A stretch of DNA of 64,000 bases from Primula veris (taxonomy: Eukaryota > Streptophyta > Magnoliopsida > Ericales > Primulaceae): assembly GCA_963682055.1 (NCBI GenBank), contig OY821751.1:6324001-6388000 (forward strand), written 5' to 3'. Positions 11,926-56,098 of this stretch are shown piece after piece; position 1 is the stretch's first letter, and every line of letters begins with the position of its first letter. The notes under the pieces were generated by a model that saw only the letters and a list, made by a program, of their open reading frames with translations, searched no databases and was not told the origin of the DNA. The position numbers and the translations under genes are program-made.

Positions 11926-11930
11926 AAAAT

Positions 11931-12500
11931 TGATAGAACACAAAAATTAGACCCGAATATTCTATTCGGGTAATAATCAACCCACTTTATAAATGGGTAT
12001 CCAACGCTTAAATGGGTCGTCTCATACTTTTTATAGGAATTGAGGTGTTACTATCAAAAGCCCAAGCCCAATCAAATGGGGACTCATGTCTGAAAAACCC
12101 CTGGGATGAAGACATTTGTCAACATCCTAGAAGGCATAGTTGCCTATAAATAGCCAACTACCCCTCCTAGAAAAAGACCAGAAAATCTATCCAAAAAATA
12201 TAGAGAGAAGTTGAGAAAAGAGAGAAACTAAACAACGCACACCACTTCGAGAAATAAACCGAGAAAAGACAAAGCCGAGAACCGAATAAAAGGGGAGAAA
12301 GATCAAGACGAGAAATTAAATAGTCATATCGAGCACAATTGTAAAACCGAAATACTAATCCGAGCAAGTGTAATAGTCCGAATAAGGATAATAATCCGAG
12401 CAATAATAAAGATCAGGAAGTGTCCATTATTCACGGTTGATTTACTATTATATCATTGTTGAAAAGCCTAACGCGACCGACCAAAGTTATGGCTTTATCA
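11931..12500 (+). repeat. 5' LTR of the gypsy element
   Basis: It starts TGATAGAACAC and ends GGCTTTATCA (TG...CA). Alignment without gaps to 24044-24613 gives 7 differences, six of them transitions. It is immediately preceded by the target duplication aaaat at 11926-11930. Confidence 0.97.
12145..12152 (+). promoter_or_regulatory. LTR TATA box
   Basis: TATAAATA lies 214 bp into the 570-bp 5' LTR, a plausible U3/R promoter position. The same octamer is conserved in the 3' LTR at 24258-24265. Confidence 0.65.
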
Positions 12501-12579: not shown

Positions 12580-13930
12580 ATGGTTACCAATGTAGAGGAA
12601 ACCCATCCCGAGATAATAGAAACCAATAACCAAAACACGCAAATTAGCCAACAAGACCTCGACGATCTACTCGCCATCCGCGACAGATATGAAGCTATCC
12701 AATCCGGAAACCAACCAACAACCTCCTACGTCAACCAAGAACAACCGGTCGAACCAACCCGACATTTCATCGAAGGGATTGTCGACGAACACCCTTCGTC
12801 CTCGGAGGACGAACAAGACGTGCCCGTATTAAGGCGTGCACGAAGACGCTTAACCGGGTCCCAAGCAGGGCCGAGCTCAAGAGTCCCTTTGCCTATAGCC
12901 TCGGTCAACTCCGGTGCTCGTTTACAAACGGACGAAGCTCATCAGTTTGGCATGCCCGAGGATCATGTACTCGGACAGTCGCCCCGACTACCGACTAATC
13001 CTCCGAGGATGATTACACCACCCACGGTGGAGGTACAACACGTTGTTCCGTTAGCCGATGAAAGGAACTACGCCCAGCTACAAGCTCAGCTGGCGGCATG
13101 CATGACGGCCATGACAGCGGCCGGCATCGTATTGCCAGTTATCCAACCCGACAAAGACCCACGCCATGAAGTGGAAGATTCTGCCTACAGGGCCGCCCTG
13201 GAGGCAGCGGGTCGGCGACCCGATACAAGAGTCCCCCACCAAGGGGGCAATGTCCCAATAACTATCGTCCATCCGAACACTCATATGGAACGTGTCCACA
13301 CAAACACGAAGGACGGTAGATATCCCGAATACAGGATCGGGGAAGGATATGGCCCACCACCACATCAGGGAGGATACCCTCCCCCCTACCAAGTCATGGA
13401 TGACGCGTTCCAACAGGCTTGGAACGTATGCCAAGAAACCCCGTGTGCTGAACAGATCACGTGGTACCGCAATCCTATGGGGTTCGTCATCCCCGAATTC
13501 AGGCTCTATGATGGAAAGAGTTGCCCTATCGACCATCTGAGGCACTACAAGACGAAGATGAAACTGTGGAGTGATGACCATGCACTGATGTGCAAATTTT
13601 TCAAAAACAGCTTGGGTCAAGAGGCTTCGTGATGGTATCACAACTTACCACGGGGCTCCATTAGAGACTGGGCAGAATTGCTAAGAGCATACTCCACCCG
13701 ATACGCTGCTCATCGGAAAAAGAAGGTTAGTATCGAAACCCTTCTTAAAATGGCGATGATGCCAAATGAAAGGCTCAACGATTACTGCATACGTTTTATC
13801 GACGTAGCAAACCAGATTCCACGATATGCCAATAATATAGCCATCCAAAACTTTATCAATTCCATCCCTAATGGCTATTGGGCGAGAAGGAAGTTCATAG
13901 GCAAAAATCCAGTTACCGGGGACCCCACCT
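12580..13930 (+). pseudogene. gag, with nonsense codon and truncated C-terminus
   Basis: This is the capsid-precursor frame of the gypsy element. The first 350 codons are open: an acidic Asn/Gln-rich start, then a Pro-rich linker, then the retrotransposon gag domain from about 13440. A TGA at 13630-13632 interrupts it. The same frame resumes at once with WYHNLPRGSI and continues to about 13930 through RKKKVSIETLL and ERLNDYCIRF, which are typical gag blocks. The TGA follows TCG, so it fits deamination of a CGA arginine codon at a CpG. No CCHC zinc knuckle is present, because the frame runs into integrase sequence in another reading frame near 13900-13940. The start is the first ATG after the primer site. 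Confidence 0.85.
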
Positions 13931-15035
13931 ACTATGCATCCCGACCGAGCTACAACTGCCGGTCTTGGAGGAAATCCACGAAGGATCCTGCGGAGCACAC
14001 ATCAAAGGGAGATCCCTTGCAAACAAGGCAGTGACCCAAGGATATTGGTGGCCCTATATCAAGCAAGACGCCGATGCGTACGTCCAACGTTGCGACAAGT
14101 GCCAACGATTCGCCAAGATACCACGGCTCCCTTCATCTATGATGACCCCGGTGTCGGCACCATGGCCGTTCGCTCAATGGGCAATTGATTTGGTCGGTAA
14201 ACTCCCAAGAGCACCTGGGAGTGTGGAATATCTGATCGTCGCGACGGATTATTTCACCAAATGGGTCGAAGCTAAACCCCTCCGAGAAATCAAAGCCAGC
14301 AACGTCAAACAATTCATTTGGGAATACATCATAACTAGGTTCGGTATACCGTACGCTATCGTCGCCAACAACGGAACCCAGTTCAAAGATGCCAATTTAC
14401 AGCTGTGGTACGAGGAACTCGGTATCCGAAAATTCTATTCGACGCCGACATACCCACAAGGAAACGGGCAAGCCGAAGTGTCAAACCGAACAATATTAGA
14501 CGGCATCAAGACCACCCTTGAACAAGCAAAGGGGAGGTGGCCCGAGCGGCTACTCAATGTTTTATGGTCGTGCCGAACTACACCCAAGACGGGCACCAAG
14601 GAAACCCCGTTTAGCTTAGCATATGGTGTTGAGGCCATCATACCGACAGAGATCGGGCTACCCACGCTCCGAACGATGTTGGTCGAGCAGGGAAACAATG
14701 AACAAAGAATGAGAGAAGAGCTCGACATGATAGACGAGAAACGAGAGATAGCGGCCCTTACCCTAGCTAAGTACCAACAAAGCGTGAAGCAAACCTATGA
14801 CAAGAGAGTAAAAGGGTCCAAAGAATTCATGGTAGGAGAACTGGTGCTGCGACGAGTGACGGTCTATACCCGCAACGAAATACATGGCAAACTAAGCCCT
14901 ACCTGGGAAGGCCCATACGAAATCGTCAGGCAAACAAGTCCAGTCTCTTACAAAATCAAAAGCGTCCTGTTCGCCAACAGCCGAGGGGAAAAGAATTCTT
15001 GGAATGTGGCTAACCTAAAGAAGTACTACGTATAG
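13930..15035 (+). pseudogene. Integrase (C-terminal part of pol), catalytic residue lost
   Basis: It is the only surviving part of pol. The frame is open from 13878, but integrase-like sequence begins near GPHLLCIP (about 13935). It has the HHCC-type zinc region (HEGSCGAHIKG, later CDKCQRFA) and a DD35E catalytic core. Its C-terminal GPY-type module holds WEGPYEIV. Counting from the ATG at 13878, the first Asp is residue 104 (AIDLVGK) and the Glu is residue 200 (NGQAEVSN). The second catalytic position, 164, is Asn (AAC at 14367-14369) in ANNGTQF, where the family has Asp. The Asn-Glu spacing is exactly 35. Protease, reverse transcriptase and RNase H, normally upstream, are absent. The protein should be catalytically dead. 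Confidence 0.9.
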
Positions 15036-15136: not shown

Positions 15137-15697
15137 CTAATACTATGAAATTCCCAACATGGCCGAAGTGCCTAGGAATACTATGAAATTCCGTAAATGG
15201 CGTGTTACCGAAGGAACGCCTAGGAATACTATGAAATTCCCAACATGGCCGAAGTGCCTAGGAATACTATGAAATTCCGTAAATGGCGTGTTACCGAAGG
15301 AACGCCTAGGAATACTATGAAATTCCCAACATGGCCGAAGTGCCTAGGAATACTATGAAATTCCCAACATGGCCGAAGTGCCTAGGAATACTATGAAATT
15401 CCGTAAATGGCGTGTTACCGAAGGAACGCCTAGGAATACTATGAAATTCCCAACATGGCCGAAGTGCCTAGGAATACTATGAAATTTCGTAAATGGCGTG
15501 TTACCGAAGGAACGCCTAGGAATACTATGAAATTCCCAACATGGCCGAAGTGCCTAGGAATACTATGAAATTCCCAACATGGCCGAAGTGCCTAGGAATA
15601 CTATGAAATTCCCAACATGGACGAAGTGCCTAGGAATACTATGAAATTCCCTAAATGGCGTGTTTTCAAAGGAACGCCTAGGAATACTATGAAATTC
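15137..15697. repeat. Two-unit tandem array (38-bp A and 48-bp B) after integrase
   Basis: Units share the start GGAATACTATGAAATTCC and the end CCTA, but their middles differ. A contains 'aacatggccgaag', B contains 'aaatggcgtgttaccgaagg'. The order is A B A B A A B A B A A A B, followed by a 17-bp partial unit. Thirteen units span exactly 544 bp. The array lies about 100 bp past the integrase stop. Retand elements are known to carry an amplified tandem repeat, so this fits the clade. Confidence 0.95.
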
Positions 15698-15990: not shown

Positions 15991-16629
15991 TTAAGAAGAG
16001 CTACTGCAGGAGGAGCACGACGGTAATTGACCGAGCTCAATCTCTTCGTCATCCGTCATTGTGTACCCATCAGACTCCTCACCATCAATACGCTCCTCAG
16101 AAATGAGGGCATCAAAATTGGTCGTATGAGCCCCAACACAAGTCAGCGTCTGAAGCCGCGCGTTGAACACGGCTTCTTTCGCGAACTCGTGAGCATCCGA
16201 GGCCGCTTTACGGCGATCATCGTCAAAGGAGAGGTTACGGCGAGCTTCGATCATAGCTGCGGAAGCATCGTATCTGGCACGGGACAAACGGAAATACTTC
16301 ACCAACACGTTGGCCTTGGTCACAAGCAACTTTAATTTGCCGAAGTACTTGTCCTTTGCATGCCAATATCGATCCAAACGATGCTCCTGAACCTCAACAG
16401 TATGCTCGGCACGGCGAACGTATTCTCGAAAAGAGGCCGCCTGGGTTTTCAGCTTGGTCCGCAGTCGAGCACATTGGTCGGTCAATTTGACATTTTTGCC
16501 CATCAAAACAATGTAGGGCCACTTGTCAGGCACCTCACTAGCCGCACCAGATGAGACCTCGTCCCGGGCAGCACCAGTAGGTCCTAACCCCGGGTTAACT
16601 CGGCATGGAGAACCAGCCTGGTGCGACAT
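15991..16629 (-). CDS. Antisense ORF: 212-aa coiled-coil protein with acidic/Ser-rich tail
   Basis: It is antisense to the retrotransposon, with ATG at 16629. The protein begins MSHQAGSPC, then has about 130 residues of charged helical sequence rich in Arg, Lys, Glu and Ala with heptad-like spacing. It ends in an acidic segment (TMTDDEEIELGQ) and a Cys/Ser run (SCSSCSSSS). TATAAATC lies 96 bp before the ATG (16725-16732). A polypyrimidine run followed by TATAG also lies 16 bp before the ATG. It could therefore instead be a last exon of the antisense gene at 16772-19280. In frame, an exon start there would read AHASMSHQ. Function unknown; comparable extra frames occur in Tat-clade elements. 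Confidence 0.55.
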   Translation of the reverse strand: MSHQAGSPCRVNPGLGPTGAARDEVSSGAASEVPDKWPYIVLMGKNVKLTDQCARLRTKLKTQAASFREYVRRAEHTVEVQEHRLDRYWHAKDKYFGKLKLLVTKANVLVKYFRLSRARYDASAAMIEARRNLSFDDDRRKAASDAHEFAKEAVFNARLQTLTCVGAHTTNFDALISEERIDGEESDGYTMTDDEEIELGQLPSCSSCSSSS

Positions 16630-16654
16630 ACTAGCATGTGCCTATAAAAAAAAA

Positions 16655-16675
16655 GGGGGGGGGGGGGGGGGGGGG
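16655..16675. repeat. G21 homopolymer (C21 on the antisense strand)
   Basis: On the minus strand this is a C21 run followed by T-rich sequence and TATAG, just upstream of the antisense ORF start at 16629. It forms a long polypyrimidine tract and is a likely slippage site. Confidence 0.9.
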
Positions 16676-16724
16676 AGAAGAACGAGAAGAGATGAATATA
16701 CAAAAAAAGAAAAAGAAAAAAAAA

Positions 16725-16732
16725 GATTTATA
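16725..16732 (-). promoter_or_regulatory. TATA box of antisense ORF at 15991-16629
   Basis: Minus-strand TATAAATC, 96 bp before the ATG at 16629. It is one of a series of similarly placed TATA boxes in the antisense cargo. Confidence 0.45.
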
Positions 16733-16771
16733 CAAGCTACAAATAAAACGACAAAACAAGCTACTCTATTA

Positions 16772-19280
16772 TTAATCCGACAACCCCTCAACAGACGCCG
16801 AGGTCTCTACTACATCGGCAAAATGAATATCTCGCAATGAATTAATTTGCGTCCCTAAACGCTCACGAATGACCGCCTCGATTCGTTTCAAGGCAACAGT
16901 GGTTTCAGTTACCCCGGCCTTCGCATCAACCATGCGCTCTGCCCGGGACACACCACTCATTCCTTTTATATGCTCCAGCACCTCTAAAGCGCGAGCTCGG
17001 GCCCAATACGCTTTGGCAAAGGATAACAGCAGGTCCGCATCCTCGAAAACGGCCCCAAGGACCAAGATCAGGCTCGTCACACGACCTCGGGCTTCATCAC
17101 GAGAACGTCGTAGGGCACCAAGAAGTTCATTCGCTTTACCCTTATTTGCCGTATAATGGGCGGTCTTTTTACTAAATTTCTCTCCCAAATCACGTAACCG
17201 AATCGCCAAGTTGGAAATATGAATATTCAGACCCTCGATTTCCTGATAAGCACAAGTCAATTTCGCGGTAAGGGACGCCTTAGATCTTTCCAAATCTTCT
17301 ATTACGTCACCTACATTACGACTAGGCGAGGTCCAGACCACCATGGCAAGGGGGTTATTTGGTACCTGACAATATTTTGTTTTCACATCCTTCAAAATAT
17401 GACGACCATCAAAAGAAATTAACCCAAGAAAGCCCAACAGAAAGAAAACACAGCACCTATATTATCACTTCCCCAAAAGAATCTGTTTCTAGATACACAA
17501 GAGACTAAAAAAAAAAAAAAAAAAAAAAAACTATACATACTGCTAGAAAGATAGTCAAGGTTCCACCTGAGGAGATACTGGTGGGGGAACAACAGTAGCA
17601 TCCGTATACCCCATCCTTAAAGCTTGGGGCTGCTCCAGCAATTTCCCCTTGCACCGACCAATGTAACGGGTCATCGCGACCTCATCCACCAACACCTTCT
17701 CGGGTCCGTCGAGAGCCTCATCCTCGACACCCGTCACAACATCCACGGCACTCTCCTTGCCGACCTCCATTTCCACCCCCACGTCCTCCTCCAACTGATC
17801 AATCTCAGGGGCCCTATGCTCGATCTCTTCCTCAGTACGGAGGGGCGAGCAAACGGGCAAATCTATCGGATCCTCGGTAGGGATAGGCGAGATGACAGGC
17901 AAAGTCATCGTACCCTCTCCCATGTTAGTCAAGAGGTTCATATGTCCGAATATATCGTCGATCGACCCCTGAAACACAATAATACCCATAGACCGGGCAA
18001 GAGCGAGGGTAACCAATGGAGAAGTCAGTAGCTGAAACAAGATGACTAATAAAGCAAAGCACTAGCGAACAAAATGACAACAATCAAAAGACAAGAAAAT
18101 CAAAATACATGTACACATACATCGCCCGGCGCAGAGGCATCCTCGGTGGTATCCCCTTGGGAAGCAGCAAACACCCCCTCGCCCGAACCAACGTTCGCAT
18201 CCTCCTCGGTAACCGATGTATCGGTTCCCCTAGCCCTCTTCGTTGTTTCAACGACAGGGTCAGATGCACGACGCTTAGAACGAAAGGCCTTCTTCCCTAG
18301 CCGAGCAGCACTTCGAGCCCGGACCACTTTCAAGAATTCCTCCTCAGGCTCTTTGGGGATCTCGGGTGCGGGATTCCCCTTGGTCACCGACCCCATAGGG
18401 TACCCGAGCAGCATGGGAGCAGTACGACTCGCAGGATCCGGCGTCGGTCCAGGCCCCCACCATTTCCAAAGAGCTAACAGAGCCTCTACATTGGGAGCGC
18501 CGAGGTCTGGCATAGTGGGAGCATTGGTAGCCGGCCCAGGAATCTGGTGTCCCGGACAAGCCCATTCACCAGACGCAATAACAATACCAAGATTGCGCTC
18601 TTTGTTGGTATCCGGCAAACCGATAACGAGCCGACAAAAGGAACGCAAGGTTTTCAGATACGAGCTGCGACGCTCAAAGCTTAAACTATAGACTCCGAAG
18701 ACATCCTTCAGTTCAATCGGTATTCCGGACAGCTCCGATAACCTTTGGATACCATTCAGAGTACGGTAACCATTTAGGGCCAGTTGGGCCGGAGCAATCT
18801 GGACGGCCTCAAAGAACGAAGCCACCCAGTTTGTAAAAGGCAGTCGAAGACCCCCAGTGAAGAATGCCGAAGAGCGCATAGCTACCTCGCCGGCAGGAAC
18901 AAATCCCAGCACCTCCTCGTCAGAAATAGGAAGCCGAATGTGTATGTTGTCAGGTATTCCGGCAAGCTCCTTAAAATCCTTTTCTACGAATGTGCCAACT
19001 TGGGCCACACTTTGGCTCAGAATTTCCTATCCAAACATCATCAAAAGTCCATCAATATACTAACCAAATACACAAACAAGAACCACATCAATATAACGAG
19101 CGCCACCACCCCCCCCCCCCCCCCCCCACACTCACATTAACCAGATACATAAGAATCATCAGACATATATAGATAACCTGAACCATATACAAACGCCACA
19201 TCTATGACCACAACGACAAATCAAATACAACTCCTAAAAAAGGGGAAGGGGGAGAACGAAAAATCACTTACAGTAATCAT
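16772..19280 (-). CDS. Antisense multi-exon gene with PF04195-like 'gypsy type transposon' domain and coiled coil
   Basis: I read four exons on the minus strand: 19280-19272 (ATG ATT ACT, then donor GTAAGT), 19026-18121 (acceptor GGATAG, donor GTATGT), 18031-17567 (acceptor TTTCAG, weak donor GTGGAA) and 17365-16772 (acceptor TGTCAG). All junctions are phase 0 and the joined frame is about 657 aa. Exon 2 holds a block resembling PF04195: IRLPISDEE, then SSAFFTGGLRLPF and APAQLALNGYRTL. Exon 3 is acidic. Exon 4 is a long heptad-like helix. If the last intron is not used, the protein ends at 17555 after about 460 residues. Antisense frames between pol and the 3' LTR are known from Tat elements; their role is unknown. 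The exon structure is inferred from splice signals and frame continuity. Confidence 0.6.
17507..17530. repeat. A24 homopolymer (T24 antisense) in an inferred antisense intron
   Basis: On the minus strand it is a T24 run inside the inferred third intron (17366-17566), upstream of the acceptor at 17366-17367. Confidence 0.9.
19109..19127. repeat. C19 homopolymer in the first antisense intron
   Basis: Nineteen C residues inside the inferred first intron (19027-19271) of the antisense gene. On the transcribed minus strand it is a G run. Confidence 0.9.
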
Positions 19281-20016
19281 TATGAGCAAGCAAGCGCGAA
19301 CAGCAGCAAGTCTTTCAACAATACCACGAAACCCTAGATCAAGCGGCCGAACTCTTTTCCTTTTTGGCGGGAAGAATATACTTTAGAGAGAGAGACAGAT
19401 ATTTTCTTCAGCAAATTTTGTGATAAAAATAAAAAAGGATTACTTGGCACAATAGAAAGGAGTGGAGTCACAAAAAGAATAAAATAATAACCGTCCTTTC
19501 GTGTAACAGAGGTTTACCTTTTTTCCAACCATACAAAAGTCAACAACCGCTGCTATTTTTAACATATAAACGCTCCAGATTTCGCCACGTCAGCGCGTAT
19601 CTCACTACCCAAGGCAGTTCACATCATTACACCTAAATAAACGGCCAGTGGACCTTACCACGAAAAGCTTCCCTCATACGCTACCACTTTTATCACACCG
19701 AGAATGTCCCCCGATTAAAGTTCCTCGACTCCCAACCAATTCTTACCCAAAGGGCACACCGAACAAGGTGGACGAAGACCGTTTCTAGCTTGACGGCAGG
19801 GAGCATCAAGTCTAACAACGCTCTCCGGGGGGATAACCGGGCATATTGTTCGGTGTATGCTGAGAGACATCAAATGATATCAACATAAAAGAGTGAAGTA
19901 AACCAGAAATAAAATAGGACAGAATCAAGTGCAAGACAAGTTTTATTCATCCACAAAGGGGGAAACACAAACAATACAACAGAAAAAGAAAAATGTTACA
20001 AGAAAATACACCCATC
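19281..20016. other. Upstream region of the main antisense gene
   Basis: It presumably holds the leader and promoter of the antisense gene starting at 19280. A TATA-like TTTATATGTT on the minus strand lies at 19561-19570. Several frames are open but none has recognisable features. The stretch 19741-19860 is GC-richer than its surroundings and unexplained. Confidence 0.4.
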
Positions 20017-20379
20017 CTACTTTTTCGAACTATCCCCCATAGCAACATCCCTCTTCGCCAAAAGTTCCTCCAGACGCTCCTTCTCCCTAATCAAACGAGA
20101 AATCGCCATCTCAGCCTGTTTCAAGGCGTAAGACTGAGACTCGCATTTTTGCTCGGCCTTGAAACGAGCAGTGCCCTCCTCGTCCCAATATTGTTTAAAC
20201 CTCCTCACTTCAGTCCGAGCACACATGAGATCATGTTTCAGCCATGACATCTCAATTTCTTTTAGTTGAAGAAGAGTCAAATCCTCCTCCCCAAAACCAG
20301 GGGGACGAGGCAGCAAAAAAATAGGCTCCTCTTCCATAAGGGCTTTCTTTTTGGAGCCAGACCTAGTGATGGGAGCCAT
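20017..20379 (-). CDS. Antisense ORF: 120-aa coiled-coil protein
   Basis: The start is ATG at 20379 (MAPITRSGSKKK). A frame extending further upstream would begin with a non-ATG codon. A basic N-terminus is followed by a Pro-containing linker (LLPRPPGF). Then come about 80 residues of charged helix with heptad character and the end AMGDSSKK. Minus-strand TATAAATG lies 83 bp before the ATG. Function unknown. In size, layout and orientation it matches the neighbouring antisense units. Confidence 0.5.
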   Translation of the reverse strand: MAPITRSGSKKKALMEEEPIFLLPRPPGFGEEDLTLLQLKEIEMSWLKHDLMCARTEVRRFKQYWDEEGTARFKAEQKCESQSYALKQAEMAISRLIREKERLEELLAKRDVAMGDSSKK

Positions 20380-20461
20380 CTCACGCAAAAGCAAGTTAGA
20401 AGAAGCAAATTATAAAATAAGAGGGAGGAAGAATTGGTAATGAGATACAGGCAATAGGGAA

Positions 20462-20469
20462 CATTTATA
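20462..20469 (-). promoter_or_regulatory. TATA box of antisense ORF at 20017-20379
   Basis: Minus-strand TATAAATG, 83 bp before the ATG. Confidence 0.45.
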
Positions 20470-20612
20470 GAGAATCAAAAGGCACAAAGTACGAAGCGTT
20501 ACAAGGGTTCACAAGACAGGCACGAGATACGAAAAGATACAACTGATTCATCAAATACAGAAAATAAAACACAAATTGCAAAAGGGGAAATACATAAGAA
20601 AACCAGCCCAAT

Positions 20613-21059
20613 CTAAGGATCAATGGGTGGAAAAACCGAACTGCCAGACCGAGAGAAAGCAAAACGAGCAGAACAATTCAACCAAGCTTGGTAGGAATCG
20701 TTCATGGCGACCAAATTGTCATTCTCCGAGGAGAGCCAGTTGTTTTCCGTAGTAAAAACCCTGACGCGCTCCACGAGCCGAGCATTTTTTACCATTATGC
20801 TAGCTAGGCCTTGAGGAGAGTTGTCAAACTCATCTTGAGAATGGTCTCAAATCTCCTCGGCATCATACCAGGAGTTGGCCAGATGGTTTCTCTGTAACAA
20901 CAAGTGATCGAGCTGGCGACTCAATGCCGAAATCTCGGTCCACTTCACCGTCTCTTCGGGATAAGAGCCGAACAAGCTCAAGGCCAAAACGCCATACTCT
21001 TTCTCAAGCCTTGTCATCCGACGGCGGACCCGAGATACCTCAGTGTCCAAGCCCTTCAT
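20613..21059 (-). pseudogene. Antisense coiled-coil ORF with one nonsense codon
   Basis: From ATG at 21059 (MKGLDTEVSRVRRR) the frame runs 70 codons to a TGA at 20847-20849. It then continues open in the same frame to 20613, ending SVFPPIDP, which suggests one 148-codon gene with a single premature stop. Residues before and after the stop are charged and helical, with Leu spaced as in coiled coils. The TGA follows ATT (tTGAg), so it could derive from CGA. Minus-strand TATAAG lies at 21191-21196, about 132 bp upstream. The minus strand also has a TTTCCCAG acceptor-like site near 21093, so a short leader intron is possible. Function unknown. Confidence 0.45.
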
Positions 21060-21190
21060 CTGAGCGTGGTATCTCACCACAGGTCCAGATATTCTGGGAA
21101 ATTGTTATAGTACGGAAGAAAATAAAGGGCTGAGGGAGAGAAGCAAAAATAAAAATGAGAGATGATAAACTACCAAAGAAAAGAGAAGTA

Positions 21191-21196
21191 CTTATA
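21191..21196 (-). promoter_or_regulatory. TATA-like box of antisense ORF at 20613-21059
   Basis: Minus-strand TATAAG in the context GTTCTATAAGTAC, 132 bp before the ATG at 21059. Confidence 0.35.
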
Positions 21197-21430
21197 GAAC
21201 GGAGATAGCATACATATTCCTAACCTACTAAGGAGCATGCACCTATATTCGACAGTGATGGGGACATCTACTGACATCTGATACAACAGTACAGAAGGAA
21301 ATAAAGAAGAGATATACAAAGATCTAACTTCCCGACAAACAACAAACCACAGGTGCAATATAAAAAGAAGCGCAAAAATAAAGGGGCAAAAATACTTTTC
21401 ATTAATAAAGATGGGATATATCATTATTCA

Positions 21431-21578
21431 TTACATCCGAAAAGGAAATCTATTACATTCAAAAAGAAAATCTATTACATCCGAAAAGAAAATCTGTTAC
21501 ATCCGAAAAGAAAATCTGCTACATCCGAAAAGAAAATCTGTTACATCCGAAAAAAAGATCTATTACATCTGAGAAGAG
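21431..21578. repeat. 22-bp tandem repeat, 6.7 copies
   Basis: The unit is close to TTACATCCGAAAAGAAAATC plus TG/TA. Six full 22-bp units start at 21431, 21453, 21475, 21497, 21519 and 21541, followed by a 16-bp partial copy. It lies just downstream (minus strand) of the antisense ORF ending at 21610. Confidence 0.93.
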
Positions 21579-21609
21579 CTAGTACAGAAGATCAGGCAAA
21601 GAAGATCGA

Positions 21610-22191
21610 CTATATCAGCTGACCAAGTGAGCAGGAAACGCCAAAAAGAAAAAGTAAGAAGAAAGAGAAAGGAAAAGAAGAAGAGTGCAAGAGAACAAAA
21701 GGGGAAGAAAGTGGAGGGAACAGAAGTGAAAAGGACGTAAAAGAAACAAAACAAAAAGAAGAAAAAGAAAGACCTAGGAAAAGATAGTAAGAAGAAAATG
21801 GAGGATAGAGAGAAGAGAGACTGAAAGAGTATAGAAAGAAAAGAGATGGGAAAAGATGGGGAAAAACAGAGAAAAATAAAAAAAAAGAAGGGGGAAGGTT
21901 AGGGGAAAGTCGATCGGTATCGATGAGAGGGCCCGGCAGAGACATCCCTGTCCCTCTGGTCGGGTTCCCCCTTAGCATCTCATTCTCTTCGACTAGAGCC
22001 TGACGAGCACGTCGGCTATAAGCCAGTTCGGATCTTAGCCAAGTTAATTCCCGAACCATCTCGGTATGGTGATAACGCATCACCTTCAGTTCCTCCTCGG
22101 CATCCCTCAACAGCCGTTGTACATGGCTATAAGAGGCTTCAAAGGCCTTGACTTGCAAAGCCAATGCTGATGGGGTGAAAGGACCAGACAT
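21610..22191 (-). CDS. Antisense ORF: coiled-coil N-terminus fused to Phe/Ser/Leu low-complexity tail
   Basis: The start is ATG at 22191 (MSGPFTPSALAL), preferred over the upstream in-frame ATG at 22263 because TATAAATA lies 85 bp before it. Residues 1-80 are charged helix with heptad character (RDAEEELKVM, RSELAYSRR). After about residue 100 the protein is nearly all Phe, Ser, Leu and Pro, encoded by a pyrimidine tract. That part is probably non-functional sequence read through after the original end was replaced. Function unknown. Same layout as the neighbouring antisense units. Confidence 0.45.
   Translation of the reverse strand: MSGPFTPSALALQVKAFEASYSHVQRLLRDAEEELKVMRYHHTEMVRELTWLRSELAYSRRARQALVEENEMLRGNPTRGTGMSLPGPLIDTDRLSPNLPPSFFLFFSVFPHLFPSLFFLYSFSLSSLYPPFSSYYLFLGLSFSSFCFVSFTSFSLLFPPLSSPFVLLHSSSFPFSFFLLFLFGVSCSLGQLI
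21617..21900. repeat. Long purine-rich (GA) tract
   Basis: The plus strand is almost entirely A and G for about 280 bp, with scattered gaaaaga and gagaaag words but no fixed period. It encodes the low-complexity tail of the antisense ORF ending at 21610. Confidence 0.8.
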
Positions 22192-22275
22192 CTTAGGGAA
22201 ATTATAAGATGAGGGTCTATATATGGGGGAAAATAATATGATGAGAATTGTGGATGTAACCATGCTATAAGCAGG

Positions 22276-22283
22276 TATTTATA
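22276..22283 (-). promoter_or_regulatory. TATA box of antisense ORF at 21610-22191
   Basis: Minus-strand TATAAATA, 85 bp before the ATG at 22191. Confidence 0.45.
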
Positions 22284-22838
22284 GATCAATTAGATGAGGG
22301 CTGGTATTGAGAGTCGCAACCGTTCGCCAATGGGTATTCAGAAGCGACGGCACTTAAAAGAGGTGTCTGTTCAAGAAAAACGTTTGGATTCCCAAAAGAC
22401 TCTAAAAAGCGTAAGTAATTAAAAGCCACTCCTGTTCAAGAAACGCTTGGATTCTTACCAATATTTAAAGAGGGCAAGTAATAATGGAATTGAAACATGC
22501 ATCATTTCTGGGGAAAGGCATTAGGTTCAAATAAATATCTAAGATCTTTTGCACAGAGATCAAGAAAACTCTGGTGAATAAGATTTTATGCACAAGGCTC
22601 AAGAAATCCTATTGGTCCCCAGATATAAAGAGTAAGAAGGTCCAATGGATAAGGTCAAACGCTAGGCCCAAGAAAAAGCATTGATGAGGCCACAAGCGTG
22701 CGCAGTCATAAAAAATTGCATTGGGAAAGTAATTCAGATATAAACAAGAGAAAGAAGTTTTTATTGATTAATTGATACTTCGTTACAGAAGAAGCAATAA
22801 AAGGAAATACAATAAATAAATAAATAAAAACGATAAAA
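22284..22838. other. Spacer between antisense ORFs
   Basis: No coding frame is supported. A short imperfect direct repeat around 'gttcaagaaa...cgtttggattc' occurs near 22367-22392 and again near 22434-22454. The remainder presumably combines the 3' end of one antisense unit and the promoter of the next. Confidence 0.4.
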
Positions 22839-23177
22839 TCATTTCGTAGAAGGGCCCGCTTCGTCATTTGGCTTCCTTTTCGACCGAGCATACACTTCCT
22901 TAAGGGCCAGTTTGTAAGCCCTCTTGGAAGCAAGTTGCCTATCTCTGGAGGCCTCGAGCTCTTTGATCCGAGCACGAGCGCGAATACTGTCGAGCAAAGA
23001 CCTCTGGTGCTCCTTCTCCAGGGCATCCAATCGCTCGTCTAGTTCGGCGGCCCGACGAGCTTCCACCGATAGCCGGGCAACCCTCTTCTCGAGATAACGC
23101 ACCTTCTGAACTTCCTCTTCCAGACGAGCAACATATTCAGGAAGGTTGTCACCATAGTTTTCAAGAGGAGAAGCCAT
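22839..23177 (-). CDS. Antisense ORF: 112-aa coiled-coil protein (paralogue of the next unit)
   Basis: The start is ATG at 23177 (MASPLENYGDN). The rest is one continuous charged helix with clear heptads (ARLEEEVQKVRYLEKRVARL) ending in a basic tail (YARSKRKPNDEAGPSTK). The C-terminal block KRAYKLALKEVYARSK closely matches KRAYKLAFKELHARSK from the unit at 23481-23800, so the two are diverged duplicates. Minus-strand TATAAAAG lies about 50 bp before the ATG. Function unknown. This is the most intact of the small antisense units. Confidence 0.55.
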   Translation of the reverse strand: MASPLENYGDNLPEYVARLEEEVQKVRYLEKRVARLSVEARRAAELDERLDALEKEHQRSLLDSIRARARIKELEASRDRQLASKRAYKLALKEVYARSKRKPNDEAGPSTK

Positions 23178-23226
23178 TTGTTCGTTAATAAAGAATGAAT
23201 TGCATAAAGAATACAGGGACAGTCCC

Positions 23227-23234
23227 CTTTTATA
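23227..23234 (-). promoter_or_regulatory. TATA box of antisense ORF at 22839-23177
   Basis: Minus-strand TATAAAAG, part of TATAAAAGGGGAC, about 50 bp before the ATG. Confidence 0.5.
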
Positions 23235-23480
23235 AGAAGAAACAAGAAGTAGATCAAAAGTCATCTCGAAGAAATACAACCTCTTGAACTTCCCAAGAGC
23301 ATTTACGGCGAATTAACTACAGTTCCAAACCCAATTAAAGTCATCCAAAAAGATATCAAGAAGATGAACAGACAAGAACAAGGATAGGGAAATATTTTAT
23401 TAATTTCAAAAACTTCGATTACAACTGAGGAAAAGACTCCCCATTCAAAAGAAATTACAACAGAAATCGCAAAAAACTAA

Positions 23481-23800
23481 TTATTTCGAGGAAGAGCCTT
23501 CTTCATCGTCATCCGAACTCGGTTTAGACCGAGCGTGCAACTCCTTGAAGGCAAGCTTATAGGCCCTTTTTGCTGCCTTCTGCTTAGCCAGGTTAGCCTC
23601 GAGCTTCTTTATATGCTCGTAAGCCCAATCCCGATCGCCATCGTCACATGATGATCAGAATCCATGTCAGACAACCTTTTCTTGTAGTCTGAAACCTTGG
23701 CCACGAGTTTCTTATTCGCGGTACGAGATTTCTTGATTTCCATTTCTAAATATGAAATATAATTAAAGGAGCTCTCACCAGTAGAACCTGAAGAAGCCAT
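23481..23800 (-). pseudogene. Antisense coiled-coil ORF, frameshifted paralogue
   Basis: The ATG at 23800 opens MASSGSTGESSFNYIS, followed by charged helix. Near 23643 the frame breaks: the first frame soon stops, while a shifted frame carries on with WAYEHIKKLEANL and KRAYKLAFKELHARSK, then an acidic/Ser tail, to a TAA at 23481-23483. One missing base would explain this. The shifted part aligns with the C-terminus of the ORF at 22839-23177. Minus-strand TATAAAGGGG lies at 23851-23860. Confidence 0.6.
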
Positions 23801-23850
23801 TATGTCACGAGCAAATTAGTAGTAAAATGCCTAATTATGGAGGGAGCACA

Positions 23851-23860
23851 CCCCTTTATA
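23851..23860 (-). promoter_or_regulatory. TATA box of antisense ORF at 23481-23800
   Basis: Minus-strand TATAAAGGGG, about 50 bp before the ATG at 23800. It closely resembles the TATAAAAGGGG in front of the paralogue at 23177. Confidence 0.5.
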
Positions 23861-24043: not shown

Positions 24044-24613
24044 TGATAGAACACAAAAATTAGACCCGAATATTCTATTCAGGTAATAATCAACCCACTT
24101 TATAAATGGGTATCCAACGCTTAAATGGGTCGTCTCATACTTTTTATAGGAATTGAGGTGTTACTATCAAAAGCCCAAGCCCAATCAAATGGGGACCCAT
24201 GTCTGAAAAACTCCTGGGATGAAGACATTTGTCAACATCCTAGAAGGCATAGTTGCCTATAAATAGCCAACTACCCCTCCTAGAAAAGGACCAGAAAATC
24301 TATCCAAAAAATATAGAGAGAAGTTGAGAAAAGAGAGAAACTAAACAACGCACACCACTTCGAGAAATAAACCGAGAAAAGACAAAGCCGAGAACCGAAT
24401 AAAAGGGGAGAAAGATCAAGACGAGAAATTAAATAGTCATATCGAGCACAATTGTAAAACCGAAATACTAATCCGAGCAAGTGTAATAGTCCGAACAAGG
24501 ATAATAATCCGAGCAATAATAAAGATCAGGAAGTGTCCATTATTCACGGTTGATTTACTATTATATCATTGTTGAAAAGGCTAACGCGACTGACCAAAGT
24601 TATGGCTTTATCA
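24044..24613 (+). repeat. 3' LTR of the gypsy element
   Basis: It is 570 bp, the same length as the 5' LTR, with seven substitutions and no gaps. It is followed directly by the target duplication aaaat (24614-24618). Confidence 0.97.
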
Positions 24614-24742
24614 AAAATACTCCAAAAATTTATTTTATAGGAGCGGATTATGTGGGATCATTTTTTTTTAAAAAAATTCATAACTTTTAAAAAATCAATA
24701 GCAAAGTTTGGAAAAGAAAGAAGTTGATACATTTGCTCTTAA

Positions 24743-29497: not shown

Positions 29498-30339
29498 TAA
29501 ATATAATAATGTGACATACTTACCATTCATGAGATATTCCATCACCATAAATGAATTAATTATGATTTTAATAAGACCAATATAGATAGTTTATATATAA
29601 AAATTTCAACTCTTAAAAAGTTCCAATTTTCAAGAAAGACACTTAAAAAAATGTTACCAAATAAAGTCTAAATACATAAAAAAAAAAAAAAAAACACATT
29701 ATCTCACCAAAATTAAAGGGTAAATTTTAGATGGGAAAATTACCAAAACATACAACTATTTTAAACTAAATTACCAAAAAATTATACCCCAACACTTTAT
29801 TCCCAAAACATACAACTAATTAAAATTATAAATAATAAATCATTTTTATTTTTTTTAACAGTCTATCTCTCTCTCCGTGCTCTTTCTTTTAAAAACAGAG
29901 AGATTTTTTTCTTTTTTTTTATCTTTCTTTAAAAATAGTTCAATCTTCTTCTCCGATCAGTTCACAAGTCTCTATCCGAGTTCAATCTTCTTCTCCGGTC
30001 AATTCACAGGTCTCGGTATTGTCTTCTCCAATCAGTTCATCCGTCAATTTTCGGTTATTTTGATCATTATCTTCAACAATTCACTGGGCAATATGTGTCA
30101 ATTTTCTCGTCAATAGTCATAACTTCATCCGTCAATTTTCGAGGTATTTTTTTATTTTTTAAAATTATTGTAATTAAATTTATATACTTAATAATAATTG
30201 TAATCATGGTTCATTATATACACTTTAATAATACGGTGCATAAACTAGTTGAATTACATATAAAATAATTATTGTATGAATTATCACTATTATGTATGCA
30301 TTTTTATCATTGATAGTGCTCTTTAATGCACGTATACAC

Positions 30340-32480
30340 AATACATTGTTTATACACACTCTTTAATACATGCATACAAAATACATTTTGTATTCATTGA
30401 CAATGCCCATTTGTATTTTTGTTATTATTCATACACAATATACTGTTTATACATACTTTTTAATACATGCATACACAATATACAGTTTATACATGCTTTT
30501 TAATATAGGCATACACAATACATTGTTTATCCATTTACACTTTTTGTGTGTTTTGTTTATATTGTTTTGTAGTGCAATAGGCAGCATTTTGATGATGTGC
30601 AATATAGATGTTGTCACGGTTGGTAGTTCTAAGATGTTATAATTGCAATTCAAATCGATATAAGTTTTGAAAATTTGGTGGCTAAAATTTATGATATTTG
30701 GCCGCATTTGGATAAAAGTGATGTGTTGTTGACATATTTTATTCCTCGATATGAAAAATACCGATTAACTTGTCAGTATAGTGTTTATACATGCTCTTTA
30801 ATATAGTCATACACAATACATATTGTATACATATTATTTAATACAAGTATACACAATACACAGTTTATACATGTTTTTTTAATATATGCATACACAATAC
30901 ATTATTTATACATGTTCTTTAATAGAGACATACACAATACACAGTTTATACATATTTTTTAATATGGACATACAGAATACACTATTTATACATGATTTTT
31001 AATACAGGCATATACAATACATATTTTATAAATGCTCTTTAATACAAGCATACACAATACACAGTTTATACATATTTTTTTAATACGGGCATACACAATA
31101 CATTATTTATACATGTTCTTTAATACAGACATACAGGGTACACAGTTTATACATGTATTTTAATACGGGCATACACAATACACTATTTATGCATGCTCTT
31201 TAATACAGACATACACAATACATATTTTATACATGTTTTTTAATACATGCATACACAATACATTGTTTATACACGTTCTTTAATACAGTCATACACAATA
31301 CATTATGTATCCATTGACACTGTCCATTTTTTATGTTTTTCTTATTATGCATACACAATACACTTTTTATACATGCTCTTTAATACAGGCATACACAATA
31401 CATAGTTTATACATGTTTTTTAATACGGGCATACACAATACATTATTTATACATTTTATTTAATACATGCATACACAACACATAATTTATACATGTTTTT
31501 TAATACGGGAATACGCAATACAGGCATACACAATACATTGTTATACATGTTTTTTAATACATGCATACACAATGCACTATTTATACATGCTCTTTAATAC
31601 AGTCATACATAATACATATTTTATACATGCTCTTTAATACAGGCATACACAATACACAATTTTTATACATGCTTTTTTAATACGGGCATACACAATACAT
31701 TATTTATGCATGCTTTTTAATACAGACATACACAATATACAGTTTATACATGTTTTTTAATACGGACATACACAATACACTATTTATATATGCTCTTTAA
31801 TACATGCATGCACAATACATATTTTATACATGCTATTTAATACAGGCATACACAATACACAGTTTATATATGCTTTTTAATACAGGCATACACAATACAT
31901 TATTTATGCATGCTCTTTAATACAGTCATACATAATACATTCTGTATCTATTGACACTGTCCATTTTTTTGTTTTTTTCTTATTATTCATACACAATACA
32001 CTTTTTATACATGTTCTTTAATACAGCCAAACACAATACATAATTTATACATGTTTTTTAATACGGGCATACACAATACATTATTTATACATGTTATTTA
32101 ATACATGCATACACAACACACAATTTATATATGTTTTTAATACGAAAATACGCAATACAGACATACACAATACTTTTTTTAACCATTTTTTGGGCTTTTT
32201 CGGGTTCCCGACTTTTTTGAACTTTTTTCAGTTTTTTTGTGATTTTGGATATTTCTTGGGTTTTTTTTACAATTTTTTGGGTTTTTTCGGTTACCGACTT
32301 TTTTAAAAGTTTTTTCAGCATACACAATACATAATTTATACAGGCATACATAATACATAATTTATACATATTTTTTAATACGGGCATACACAATACATTA
32401 TTTATACATGTTATTTAATACATGCATACATAACACACAATTTATACATGTTTTTTAATACGAAAATACGCAATACAGAC
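30340..32480. repeat. About 40-bp minisatellite array
   Basis: The unit resembles TTTATACATGCTCTTTAATA followed by CAGGCATACACAATACACAG. Roughly fifty degenerate copies occur, with breaks such as the 'tccatttttttgttttt' segments near 31320 and 31960. Variation concentrates at two spots, ctct/tttt and cagg/cggg/atgc. No CRISPR features are present: there is no unique spacer, and this is a plant genome. Confidence 0.85.
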
Positions 32481-33230
32481 ATACACAATACTTTTTTTAA
32501 CCATTTTTTGGGCTTTTTCGGGTTCCCGACTTTTTAAAAGGTTTTTCCAGGCTTTTTTGGATTTTTTCGGATTCTCGACTTTTTTGAACTTTTTTCATTT
32601 TTTTGTGATTTTGGATATTTTTTGGGTTTTTTTACCAATTTTTTGGGTTTTTTCGGTTACCGACTTTTTTAAAAGTTTTTTCAGCATATTTTGGGGTTTT
32701 TTTTGAATTCTCGACTTTTTAGAAATTTTTTCATTTTTTTTTTTGTAATTTTCTTGTTTTTTTTTTTGTTTTTTACCATATTTTTGGGCTATTTCGGGTT
32801 CTCGACTTTTCTGAACTTTATTTTTATATATTTTTGTGAATTTGGATTTTTCTTGGTTTTTTTTTTTGCCACTTTTTTGGAGTTTTTTTAGCTTCTCGAT
32901 TTTTGTGAACTTTTTTCATTCTTTTTGTGATTTTGAATTTTTCTTTGTTTTTTTTTTTACTTTTTTAACCTTTTTTGGGCTTTTTCGGGTTCCCGACTTT
33001 TGAAAAGGTTTTTCCATCCTTTTCTGGGTTTTTTCGGATTATCGACTTTTTTGAACTTTTTACATTTTTTTGTGAATTTGGATTTTTATTGGTTTTTTTA
33101 TTTTTTTAACATTTTTTTGGATTTTTTCGGGTTCCCGACTTTTTTAAAAGTTTTTCCAGCATTTTTTGGGTTTTTTCGGATTTTCGACTTTTTTGAACTG
33201 TTTAAATTTTTGTTGTAATTTTATTTTTTT
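32170..33230. repeat. T-rich 'TTTTTCGGGTTCCCGACTTTTT' repeats
   Basis: Many irregular copies of a T-rich unit holding the small inverted motif CGGGTTCCCG, with spacing of about 60-130 bp. Short open frames rich in Phe here arise from the repeat. Confidence 0.7.
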
Positions 33231-41690: not shown

Positions 41691-42034
41691 GGAAGGATAT
41701 ATGGACACCATGAAAAACACCAAAATGGACACTTTTTCGTAAAAACGCTCCAAATCAAGATTTGGTTAATGCAAATCTCCATGGTTTCACGACGGGAACA
41801 CAAATATGCATCTTGTTTTTTTTTTCTAAGATGTATAATGACATGTTTTGAATTTTTAAATTTTACCATAATTTCGAAAACATTTCATTATACATCTCGG
41901 AAAAAAAAAACAAGACGCATATTTGTGTTCCCGTCGTGAAACCATGGAGATTTGCATTAACCAAATCTTGATTTGGAGCGTTTTTACGAAAAAGTGTCCA
42001 AGTTGATGTCTAAGTTGATGTTCATATAACATTT

Positions 42035-43571: not shown

Positions 43572-44159
43572 ATGAACCCGGGTCCAATTGATCCATCTGT
43601 GTTGTGGCAACAAGATTTACATAGATCGTAAAATATTTGGGAGAAAGCGGTAGAACATACTTTGCAAACCCGAAACAATGATAAAGTTTATGAAGTGGAT
43701 GCTCGTGTTGAGCGGTATTTATATTCAACTGGTTTTTACGGTATGTACCACTTAGGGTTTACTAGAATAGATAGGCCGTTAGTAACCGCCTTAGTGGAAC
43801 GGTGGCGTCCTGAGACACATACTTTTCACTTGCCCCCAGGCAAAATCACAGTAATATTACAAGATGTGGAAATATTATTAGGAGTGCCAATTGATGGAAA
43901 GCCGATAATTTCGGATGATTGCATATTTAAAAAAGATCAATGGAGAGGCATTTGTCGTCAATTGATTGGGGTGGATCCTAGGGACAATGTGGTTGGTACG
44001 AAACTTAAAATGAGTTGGCTACGTGATTGGATTGCAATTAATCCATTGCAACCGAATGCTACCGAAGAGCAGATTCGATGTTGTACTCGAGCCACAATTT
44101 TCTTATTACTTGGGGGTCAATATTTATCAGATAAAAGTGGCAACTCAAATAATGCTTGA
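43572..44159 (+). pseudogene. Plant mobile domain (PMD, MAIN-like) gene, truncated
   Basis: The frame opens MNPGPIDPSVLWQ at 43572. It meets a TAA at codon 20 and then continues in frame through YGMYHLGF, then HLPPGKITVILQDVEILLGVPIDG, which is read here as two adjoining family blocks, and RATIFLLLGGQYLSD. Conserved PMD features are the HxxPGE/K-like motif and the following ILLG block. The C-terminal half of the domain is missing after 44159. Upstream, an untranslated exon ending AAG/GTAATT near 42577 and an acceptor TACTTAG near 43565 suggest a leader intron. PMD genes are known in both host genomes and transposons. Here it lies inside a MULE, opposite to the transposase. Confidence 0.78.
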
Positions 44160-44893
44160 GTTGACAATATGCTTATTGAAAGCACGCCTGTCAATATTTA
44201 TGAACATGGTGGCTCGTCGGGATTGTGTCATAGTCGAGATGAGAGGGAACACGTGAAAGGTTGGAGGTAGTGGGTGTAATTTTAAATTTTAGTAGTGTTT
44301 ATGTACTAATATGTTAAATTGTCGTTTGATATTGTAGTACTTTAAATACGATGATGATTAAGTTATTTTGTAAAATGGTATGTCTCAAAAATGGAAAAGA
44401 GCAGTTGGTCGTCTTGTGAGTAGATGTTAATGTTTAATTTTATTTATTATTTTATTTTATGTTGAATGGTTTGTTCGAATGGTTATTTTGTTCATATTAC
44501 GTGTTAGTATTGTTGTGTTCATCATATTAAATGTTATTATTGCGGTGTTGGTGTTGTTTGTTGGTATTATATGTAAATTATTGGGTTGATCATTTTTTTA
44601 ATTTTATTTGTGGCGATGATCCATTTTTAAGCAAAACTATAGCGAATTTTTCGCTCGACATTTACTCACCAAAATTATAACATTTTATTGGTTGTTATTT
44701 GCGCAATTGTTTTAATTATAACAAAACGTATAGAAAATACATAAAGAAATTTCAATTACAAAATACACACATACCGATACATTGAAATTCCATATACATA
44801 ATAAAATACATTGATAGGAAATACACACAGAAACAAACTGAATAGAAAATACATAAATAAATTTCAATTACAAAATATGTTAGGAAAAGTTAT
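44160..44893. other. Spacer between the PMD and transposase genes in the MULE
   Basis: AT-rich. A short alternate frame to 44256 (KARLSIFMNMVARR) may be residual PMD-related sequence. No other gene is visible. It probably contains the convergent 3' ends of both genes. Confidence 0.4.
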
Positions 44894-48564: not shown

Positions 48565-48623
48565 TTTATATATAAATATATACACACAAATATATACAAA
48601 ATATATATAATATAGATTCAATA
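47870..48623. other. Intergenic region and CAF1 promoter
   Basis: AT-rich sequence follows the MULE. A CT-rich segment and an (CA)18 tract (48527-48562) lie within 100 bp of the CAF1 start codon. TATATAAATATATA sequence at about 48567-48580 may hold the TATA element, but the region is too AT-rich to be sure. Confidence 0.45.
48527..48562. repeat. (CA)18 microsatellite in the CAF1 promoter or 5' UTR
   Basis: Uninterrupted CA dinucleotides, ending 61 bp before the CAF1 ATG. Confidence 0.92.
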
Positions 48624-55586: not shown

Positions 55587-56021
55587 TCAGTTCCATTCAT
55601 ATAACTTAGTGTAATCAACATTATTGAGGCTCACATAAAAACCATCGGATTGTGCTTTCCAGTAGCATTGGTATATATCATCGCCCAACCAACAATGAGC
55701 CTTAGCCAAGTTGTTTGTAAACACATCAAAAACAGCTTGTTTATTGCCCCAATACCAGTGGCAGAAGAACAAAGTTCTGCCCCAATAATTTCCGTTGCAC
55801 TGCCAACTGAAAGACTGACCAGTATATAAGGTTTGCATGCCAAGATTATCATCCCTTGATTTACATTGGACACGCAACGGCGAAGGAGTATTAGGAACCG
55901 CACTAATGAGTTGCATCCTAATTCTTGCTAATATATGAATAGAATCTTCTTGTATTGCTCCGGTTATCCATGGACACTCTATCAATAAGATCATGCACAA
56001 AGCAAGGAATATTAATCTCAT
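55587..56021 (-). CDS. S-protein homologue (plant S1-type secreted protein)
   Basis: This is a member of the plant self-incompatibility protein S1 family (PF05938): small, secreted, Cys-rich proteins that fold as a beta sandwich. Poppy PrsS is the known signalling member, but most homologues have no known role. The 144-aa, single-exon frame starts with a signal peptide (about residues 1-22, hydrophobic LIFLALCMILLI). Family hallmarks are VQCKSRDDNLG, FSWQC, RTLFFCHWYWG, FDVF and CYWKAQSDGFYVS, with the expected Cys residues. Minus-strand TATAAAAA (56091-56098) lies 70 bp before the ATG. Nothing looks broken. A role in self-incompatibility cannot be inferred from sequence alone. Confidence 0.9.
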   Translation of the reverse strand: MRLIFLALCMILLIECPWITGAIQEDSIHILARIRMQLISAVPNTPSPLRVQCKSRDDNLGMQTLYTGQSFSWQCNGNYWGRTLFFCHWYWGNKQAVFDVFTNNLAKAHCWLGDDIYQCYWKAQSDGFYVSLNNVDYTKLYEWN

Positions 56022-56090
56022 TCTAAGGAATAGGTAATGAAATATGCAAACCGGTCTTGTTAGAATATTTCTTCTGGTTTTAGTTTCTCC

Positions 56091-56098
56091 TTTTTATA
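56091..56098 (-). promoter_or_regulatory. TATA box of the S-protein homologue
   Basis: Minus-strand TATAAAAA, 70 bp upstream of the start codon at 56021. Confidence 0.6.

Follow-up and report, generated by a model that had tools for sequence, protein, structure and literature searches.

Positions 15,991 to 23,860 of a 64,000-nucleotide stretch of the Primula veris genome (assembly GCA_963682055.1, contig OY821751.1, positions 6,324,001 to 6,388,000 of the forward strand; the whole stretch is here called the window) lie inside a long terminal repeat (LTR) retrotransposon and carry short open reading frames (ORFs) on its antisense strand. The element most likely represents a Tat-clade family, probably of the Retand type, with an antisense coding set composed of a split TRP28-like gene and at least five short single-exon genes, A2, A1, B1, B2 and C. 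Order, frames and TATA motifs of the five are conserved across sister copies; AATAAA is kept for A2, A1 and C. Amino acid constraint, as judged from sequence diversity, is clear for A1, A2, B2 and TRP28 exon 2, and weak for B1 and C.

Layout, conservation and constraint of the small genes

Small genes, 294–480 bp including the stop codon. All six starts of the preliminary description, which had assigned each a minus-strand TATA box, were located together with their motifs (Table 1). The first base of the motif lies 60, 57, 92, 137, 90 and 103 nt before the ATG quoted there for A2, A1, B1, B2, C and the ORF starting at 16629 (D), respectively. On the minus strand of the 9,007 bp (9.0 kb) between pol and the 3' LTR, a TATAA occurs 40–140 nt upstream of 12.2% of 172 ATGs; a TATA motif at six of six ORFs would arise by chance at about 3e-6, if independent. 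TATAAA is present seven times on this strand, four of them 57–92 nt before A2, A1, B1 and C. AATAAA is present only three times, each 70–80 nt past the stop of A2, A1 or C; these 3' signals were missing from the preliminary description. Circular-shift tests, with distance windows chosen after looking, matched TATAAA to four of the five gene starts (P=0.004) and AATAAA to three of the five gene ends (P=0.005). A mechanical first-ATG search for full units found only C, because further in-frame ATGs precede the starts of A1 and B1, and the A2 of the window carries a frameshift.

The window element was compared with sister copies from the 436-Mb Primula veris assembly. Of 1,291 candidate places for the 601 bp spanning gene C, the 40 best were scored; one of them is the window itself, and the other 39 were all analysed. 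In 36 of the 39, LTR, A2, A1, B1, B2 and C share this order along a single strand; within the stretches fetched for the remaining three, two show B1, B2 and C only and one is without B1. The modal ORF is open from the aligned start in 33 of 39 copies for A2 (106 amino acids, aa), 36 for A1 (112 aa), 32 for B1 (97 aa), 28 for B2 (159 aa) and 37 for C (120 aa), the last count being inflated by the choice of copies. All five ORFs are modal in 19 copies; 14 copies have four modal ORFs, 4 have three, one has two and one has a single modal ORF. TATAAA is kept in 36/37 aligning copies at A2, 36/36 at A1, 37/37 at B1 and 39/39 at C; at B2, TATAA is found in 39/39, with a second TATAA within the same stretch. 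AATAAA is kept in 36/37 (A2), 27/27 (A1) and 24/25 (C), counts that leave out 12 poorly aligning copies for A1 and 14 for C. Antisense ORFs between pol and the 3' LTR are present in most of the sister copies compared; the sister-copy check proposed earlier found conserved frames, order and TATA motifs. The family looks abundant: in the whole assembly a first look gave 1,291 candidates with gene C DNA and 2,704 with the A1 protein. The best 150 of the 2,704 A1 candidates were scored and are all full-length at 96% or above, two of them containing a stop; as the top-scoring portion of the candidates they are uninformative on decay.

A2, B1 and B2 are broken in the window, and two of the ORFs first described were therefore mis-bounded. 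For the ORF at 22191 (B1) start and TATA motif stand but the extent does not; its long hydrophobic tail results from a frameshift into a pyrimidine-rich stretch. For the ORF at 21059 (B2) the TATA motif stands; its bounds do not, the start aligning to 21092. The start at 23800 (A2) and its TATA motif likewise hold; relative to the modal ORF of the sisters, its frame is shifted in the window. Spacing between B1 and B2 is longer in most sisters (median 1325 vs 1099 in the window). A 22-bp tandem repeat lies between them at 21430–21890, beside a plus-strand stretch strongly rich in purines.

The dN/dS comparison suggested at the outset was made as the ratio of nonsynonymous to synonymous diversity (piN/piS). 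Over modal ORFs it is 0.22 (0.13–0.36) for A1, 0.28 (0.17–0.49) for A2 and 0.36 (0.25–0.51) for B2, indicating clear constraint, and 0.48 (0.28–0.97) for B1 and 0.53 (0.30–1.15) for C, where the signal is weak. The other two frames of the same strand give 0.68–1.75 for A2, A1 and B2 and 0.59–0.87 for B1 and C. With broken copies kept, values are 0.22 for A1, 0.38 for B2, 0.25 and 0.30 for two pieces of A2, 0.44 for the first 75 codons of B1 and 0.55 for C. Synonymous to nonsynonymous variants number 81:199 among singletons and 69:67 among variants found in at least two copies (P=2e-5); gene by gene, P is 0.018 for B2 and 0.06–0.24 for the others. The pattern reads as selection between transpositions followed by decay after insertion, firmly for A1, A2 and B2 and suggestively for B1 and C.

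A1 and A2 align as DNA from TATA to AATAAA with a score of 135 (at most 37 in 100 shuffles). Their protein profiles match at 97% (E=1.7e-11; 42% identity over 96 columns). Over 85 codons the proportion of synonymous differences (pS) is 0.69 and that of nonsynonymous differences (pN) 0.36 (difference 0.17–0.51, bootstrap), in a protein-guided alignment that favours low pN; no excess of pS over pN was seen in shifted frames of the C-terminal part. A1 and A2 are an old duplication of the whole TATA-to-AATAAA unit, the only supported paralogue pair among the small genes. B1 and B2 were considered as a second pair on their similar start regions (protein shuffle P 0.012–0.017) and dropped: the DNA score of 32 is below the shuffle maximum of 36, and sister profiles gave 1.9%, E=0.025, in hhalign.

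Charged residues make up 26–42% of the small proteins or their pieces. Single-sequence AlphaFold prediction, applied to A1 and C, gives one long helix in each: residues 4–100 with a mean predicted local distance difference test score (pLDDT) of 90 in A1, and residues 36–119 with a mean of 80 in C. The description of the products as charged, heptad-like helices is borne out in part, by these two helices and by a crude heptad periodicity test that is significant for A1 (0.010) and B1 (0.027) and for none of the others. The protein database yielded one close relative of A1 (P0001, 110/112 identical) and one of C (P0002, 116/120 identical). A match of A1 to HEXIM1 in the PDB (E=0.01) was taken as a generic coiled coil. 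Scans with A1 found no relatives in viral or in prokaryote genome contigs, and neither TRP28 exon 2 nor integrase as query found any in the viral contigs.

Table 1. Features of the retrotransposon and its antisense genes (window positions)
Feature	Position	Strand	Remarks
5' LTR	11931..12500	+	570 bp; AAAAT at 11926-11930
gag region	12580..13905	+	by position and reading only; stop at 13632
Integrase (H2C2, rve)	13938..15035	+	both Pfam domains above cut-off
Tandem repeat array beside pol	15139..15697	+	–
D, gene or exon	15991..16629	-	212 aa; TATA motif at 16732
TRP28-like gene, in pieces	16775..19280	-	19280-19272, 19026-18121, 18031-about 17567, 17365-16775; splice model
C	20017..20379	-	120 aa; TATAAA 20469, AATAAA 19947
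B2	20613..21092	-	start lost and in-frame stop here; 159 aa in sisters; TATAAG 21196
B1	21898..22191	-	frameshifted here; 97 aa in sisters; TATAAA 22283
A1	22839..23177	-	112 aa; TATAAA 23234, AATAAA 22765
A2	23481..23800	-	frameshifted here; 106 aa in sisters; TATAAA 23860, AATAAA 23401; A1 paralogue
3' LTR	24044..24613	+	570 bp; AAAAT at 24614-24618

The element, its TRP28-like gene and the rest of the window

The two LTRs differ at 7 of 570 positions, and AAAAT on both outer flanks is the 5-bp target-site copy. A stretch after the 5' LTR resembles a tRNA-Asp primer site, by our own reading of the motif. The first sense ORF, gag by position, has no Pfam match. Near 13905 lies a deletion point; protease, reverse transcriptase (RT) and ribonuclease H (RNase H) are absent from the window copy. 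In L064, the only sister whose fetched stretch covers both sides, this point holds about 3.46 kb of additional sequence. Sister L063 encodes RT, RNase H, RVT_3 (a second RNase H-like domain) and then Integrase_H2C2, and sister L065 has domains of RT and RNase H. A protease-like match that stays under its cut-off is present in three of three sister stretches. The window copy is a deleted member of a pol-carrying family, because sister stretches encode the pol domains missing here. By its LTRs, target-site copy and RT-RNase H-integrase order (domains from L063) the element is classed as a Ty3/gypsy LTR retrotransposon. An additional RNase H-like domain, placed after RNase H and ahead of integrase, marks the Ogre/Retand part of the Tat clade, according to the accessible text of Neumann 2019 (PMC6317226); RVT_3 of L063 corresponds, in our reading, to the aRH of that text, and the domain order in L063 places the family there. 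It probably belongs to Retand rather than Ogre, as the weak TRP28 match indicates.

TRP28-like gene antisense, between pol and the 3' LTR. The first piece comprises three codons and is followed by a GTAAGT donor; later junctions are models only, with 29 to 36 phase-keeping splice pairs per gap. Exon 2 matches Transposase_28 (PF04195) weakly, at 15.7 bits (E=0.018; cut-off 26.2 bits). Its one close relative from the protein database, the sister protein P0003 (281/302 identical), reaches 16.2 bits (E=0.013), also under the cut-off; the exon-2 ORF differs from P0003 at 4 of the first 235 residues and 15 of the next 62 (P=3e-8). The acceptor of exon 2 is kept in 8/8 sisters and its donor in 7/8, the acceptors of exons 3 and 4 in 7/7 alignable sisters; exon 2 is open and in frame in 6/8. 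The end of exon 3 is uncertain, sister alignments covering 430 of 465 bases. Calculated from seven of the eight sister copies plus the window, piN/piS is 0.21 (0.15–0.29) for exon 2, 0.52 (0.36–0.85) for exon 3 and 0.43 (0.22–0.76) for exon 4, where one other frame is lower (0.35). In two sisters (L051, L052) identity to the window is about 77% over exon 3 and 97.6% over exon 4; the contrast suggests recombination between subfamilies.

ORF D adjoins the last recognised TRP28 exon and is preceded by a pyrimidine-rich stretch ending in AG, kept in most sisters. Among seven sisters, the ATG is present in five, the full ORF with ATG in two, an early stop in three and an upstream TATAA in five. Its piN/piS, from the seven copies plus the window, is 0.51 (0.29–0.97), with one other frame lower at 0.38; this figure replaces a meaningless estimate from three sequences, 1.60 (0.54–5.96). 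D may be a separate gene or a further TRP28 exon. An initial reading as a TRP28 exon is made less certain by the stop of exon 4, kept in 6/7 sisters.

Outside the element, a long array of repeats of about 40 bp, many copies 60–90% alike, occupies 30293–32549, and an inverted repeat with 157-nt arms, 90% complementary and 27 nt apart, lies at 41693–42033. A Plant mobile domain ORF on the plus strand and MULE transposase pieces on the minus strand (43632–46445) probably represent another transposon. A CAF1-type ribonuclease exon (48576–49109) and a self-incompatibility S1-like ORF (55587–56093) are likely host genes. Rfam and tRNA scans were empty.

Proposed expression and competing explanations

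The row of protein-coding mini-genes read against the retrotransposon, as first proposed, is supported by conserved order, frames and TATA motifs; amino acid constraint adds clear support for A1, A2 and B2 and weak support for B1 and C. Given the conserved TATA motifs, each unit would be transcribed by RNA polymerase II at a core promoter of its own, in the direction opposite to the genomic transcript. An antisense layout would let promoters, introns and terminators travel within the sense genomic RNA, in which antisense introns would stay unspliced and antisense polyadenylation signals unread. Backward cassettes in retroviral vectors use the same antisense principle. Less certainly, the small proteins may be trans-acting accessory factors that multimerise via their helices, perhaps with the TRP28 protein, and serve expression, assembly, nuclear entry or targeting. 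Selection, again with less certainty, may work through rounds of transposition, each inserted copy then decaying.

If the small ORFs were exons belonging to a single extended antisense gene, either TRP28 or some longer transcript, this would agree with the splitting of the neighbouring TRP28 gene into several exons and with the conserved AG-ending stretch before the 16629 ORF. In most sisters, however, each of the five genes shows an ATG, a stop and a TATA motif of its own, AATAAA follows the stop in three of the genes, and A1 and A2 were duplicated as complete units; a single long gene is unlikely. Antisense transcripts acting as RNA, as double-stranded or small interfering RNA regulators with incidental ORFs, are quite improbable here. 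Such regulation by retroelement antisense transcripts is possible (PMC7264820), but nonsynonymous variants are depleted in A1, A2 and B2 and among shared variants, and in the A1-A2 pair the protein is kept more than the DNA. A purely RNA-level regulator is disfavoured for these three genes because the constraint falls on their amino acid sequence.

Transduction from the host, the small genes merely riding along, is very improbable. Gene transduction by retroelements is known (PMC7264820), and the small genes have no relative in the other elements examined here; against this stand the shared gene order in 36/39 copies, the constraint within the element, and the lack of any Pfam family above cut-off for the small ORFs. 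A diverged host source would have lain beyond the reach of the assembly search with A1, in which the best 150 of 2,704 candidates were scored. Chance ORFs beside chance TATA motifs in AT-rich non-coding sequence are scarcely credible. An ATG ORF of at least 112 aa does occur in 35% of 200 shuffles of this strand, and codon usage is uninformative; yet two such ORFs occur in only 4% of shuffles, the real strand has seven, and frames and signals are conserved in 39 copies, in addition to the constraint.

Several observations count against protein-coding small genes. The upper limit of piN/piS for C exceeds 1. For A2, A1 and B2 a rather low ratio is also seen in one of the reverse frames (0.37–0.43); with broken copies kept, one reverse frame of C is equally low (0.52 vs 0.55) and the nearest other frame of B1 gives 0.47 vs 0.44. 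Indel density is low in the ORFs (0–0.37 per kb) but equally so in three of four intergenic stretches (0–0.52), and is given no weight here. In a DNA-only alignment A1 and A2 differ at 36/97, 21/102 and 45/102 of the three codon positions, a weaker third-position excess (P=0.02). The codon-usage test of the minus strand between pol and the 3' LTR did not single out the ORF frames. Heptad periodicity is insignificant for the A2 pieces, B2 pieces, C and the 16629 ORF. Choosing the 39 copies by similarity at C biases C and favours young copies; among eight copies picked by A1, C was found in seven and intact in four, with TATAAA upstream in 6/7 and AATAAA downstream in 2/7, three stretches being too short.

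Known antisense genes and meaning for plant retrotransposons

Antisense ORFs between pol and the 3' LTR are established, one with its own promoter, gene23 of Grande in maize (PMC7264820). Gene23 shares with the present genes its place in the 3' internal region; it is one gene with a nuclear protein and transcript evidence, whereas the row described here is predicted from genome sequence. The antisense TRP28 genes of Retand, as given in the accessible part of Vicient 2025 (PMC11963269), resemble the present one in lying between pol and the 3' LTR, in a Transposase_28-like part, in tandem repeats beside pol and in a long internal region. They differ in that the gene here is intron-split and accompanied by at least five small antisense genes, and in the distance from pol to the 3' LTR, 9.0 kb here and 2,933–6,566 bp there. 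ORF2 of the PvRetro13 type in common bean is likewise antisense between pol and the 3' LTR, with some matches to SMC (coiled-coil type); in the accessible text it is a single ORF of 211–939 aa per family, in contrast to a row of ORFs of 97–159 aa (PMC4093653). HBZ of human T-cell leukaemia virus type 1 (HTLV-1) is one gene, expressed from a 3' LTR promoter and encoding a nuclear factor with a zipper-type helix. As an antisense-encoded factor it offers a functional analogy only (named in PMC7264820 and PMC11963269). No description of a row of small antisense genes was found in the literature searched, which was mostly without subscription papers; the accessible part of PMC3352295 contains nothing on antisense ORFs.

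As far as their accessible texts state, the Retand survey counted ORFs of at least 600 bp, also giving shorter TRP28 ORFs, and covered the 10 kb to each side of RT (PMC11963269), and the 2019 survey used a cut-off of 250 codons (PMC6317226); genes of 97–159 aa would therefore have been excluded from both. Sister copies put the RT of the present family at an estimated distance of about 12 kb from the outer 3' LTR end. Evenly poised is the wider proposal that there are plant retrotransposons with a virus-like battery of small accessory genes, each having its own promoter and terminator, all antisense and partly derived by whole-unit duplication; in this orientation promoters, introns and terminators would come through the genomic RNA stage intact. 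Such batteries may be widespread and have gone unnoticed, given survey cut-offs of 600 bp or 250 codons and searches confined to 10 kb around RT.

The usual view is that LTR retrotransposons require gag and pol and have no more than one or two additional antisense ORFs. If the present reading is true, several more small proteins are kept through transposition, and the set of element-encoded functions would be larger than recognised. Annotation with shorter ORF cut-offs is predicted to find more. Conserved, named proteins are now available for asking what the antisense accessory genes of plant retrotransposons do.

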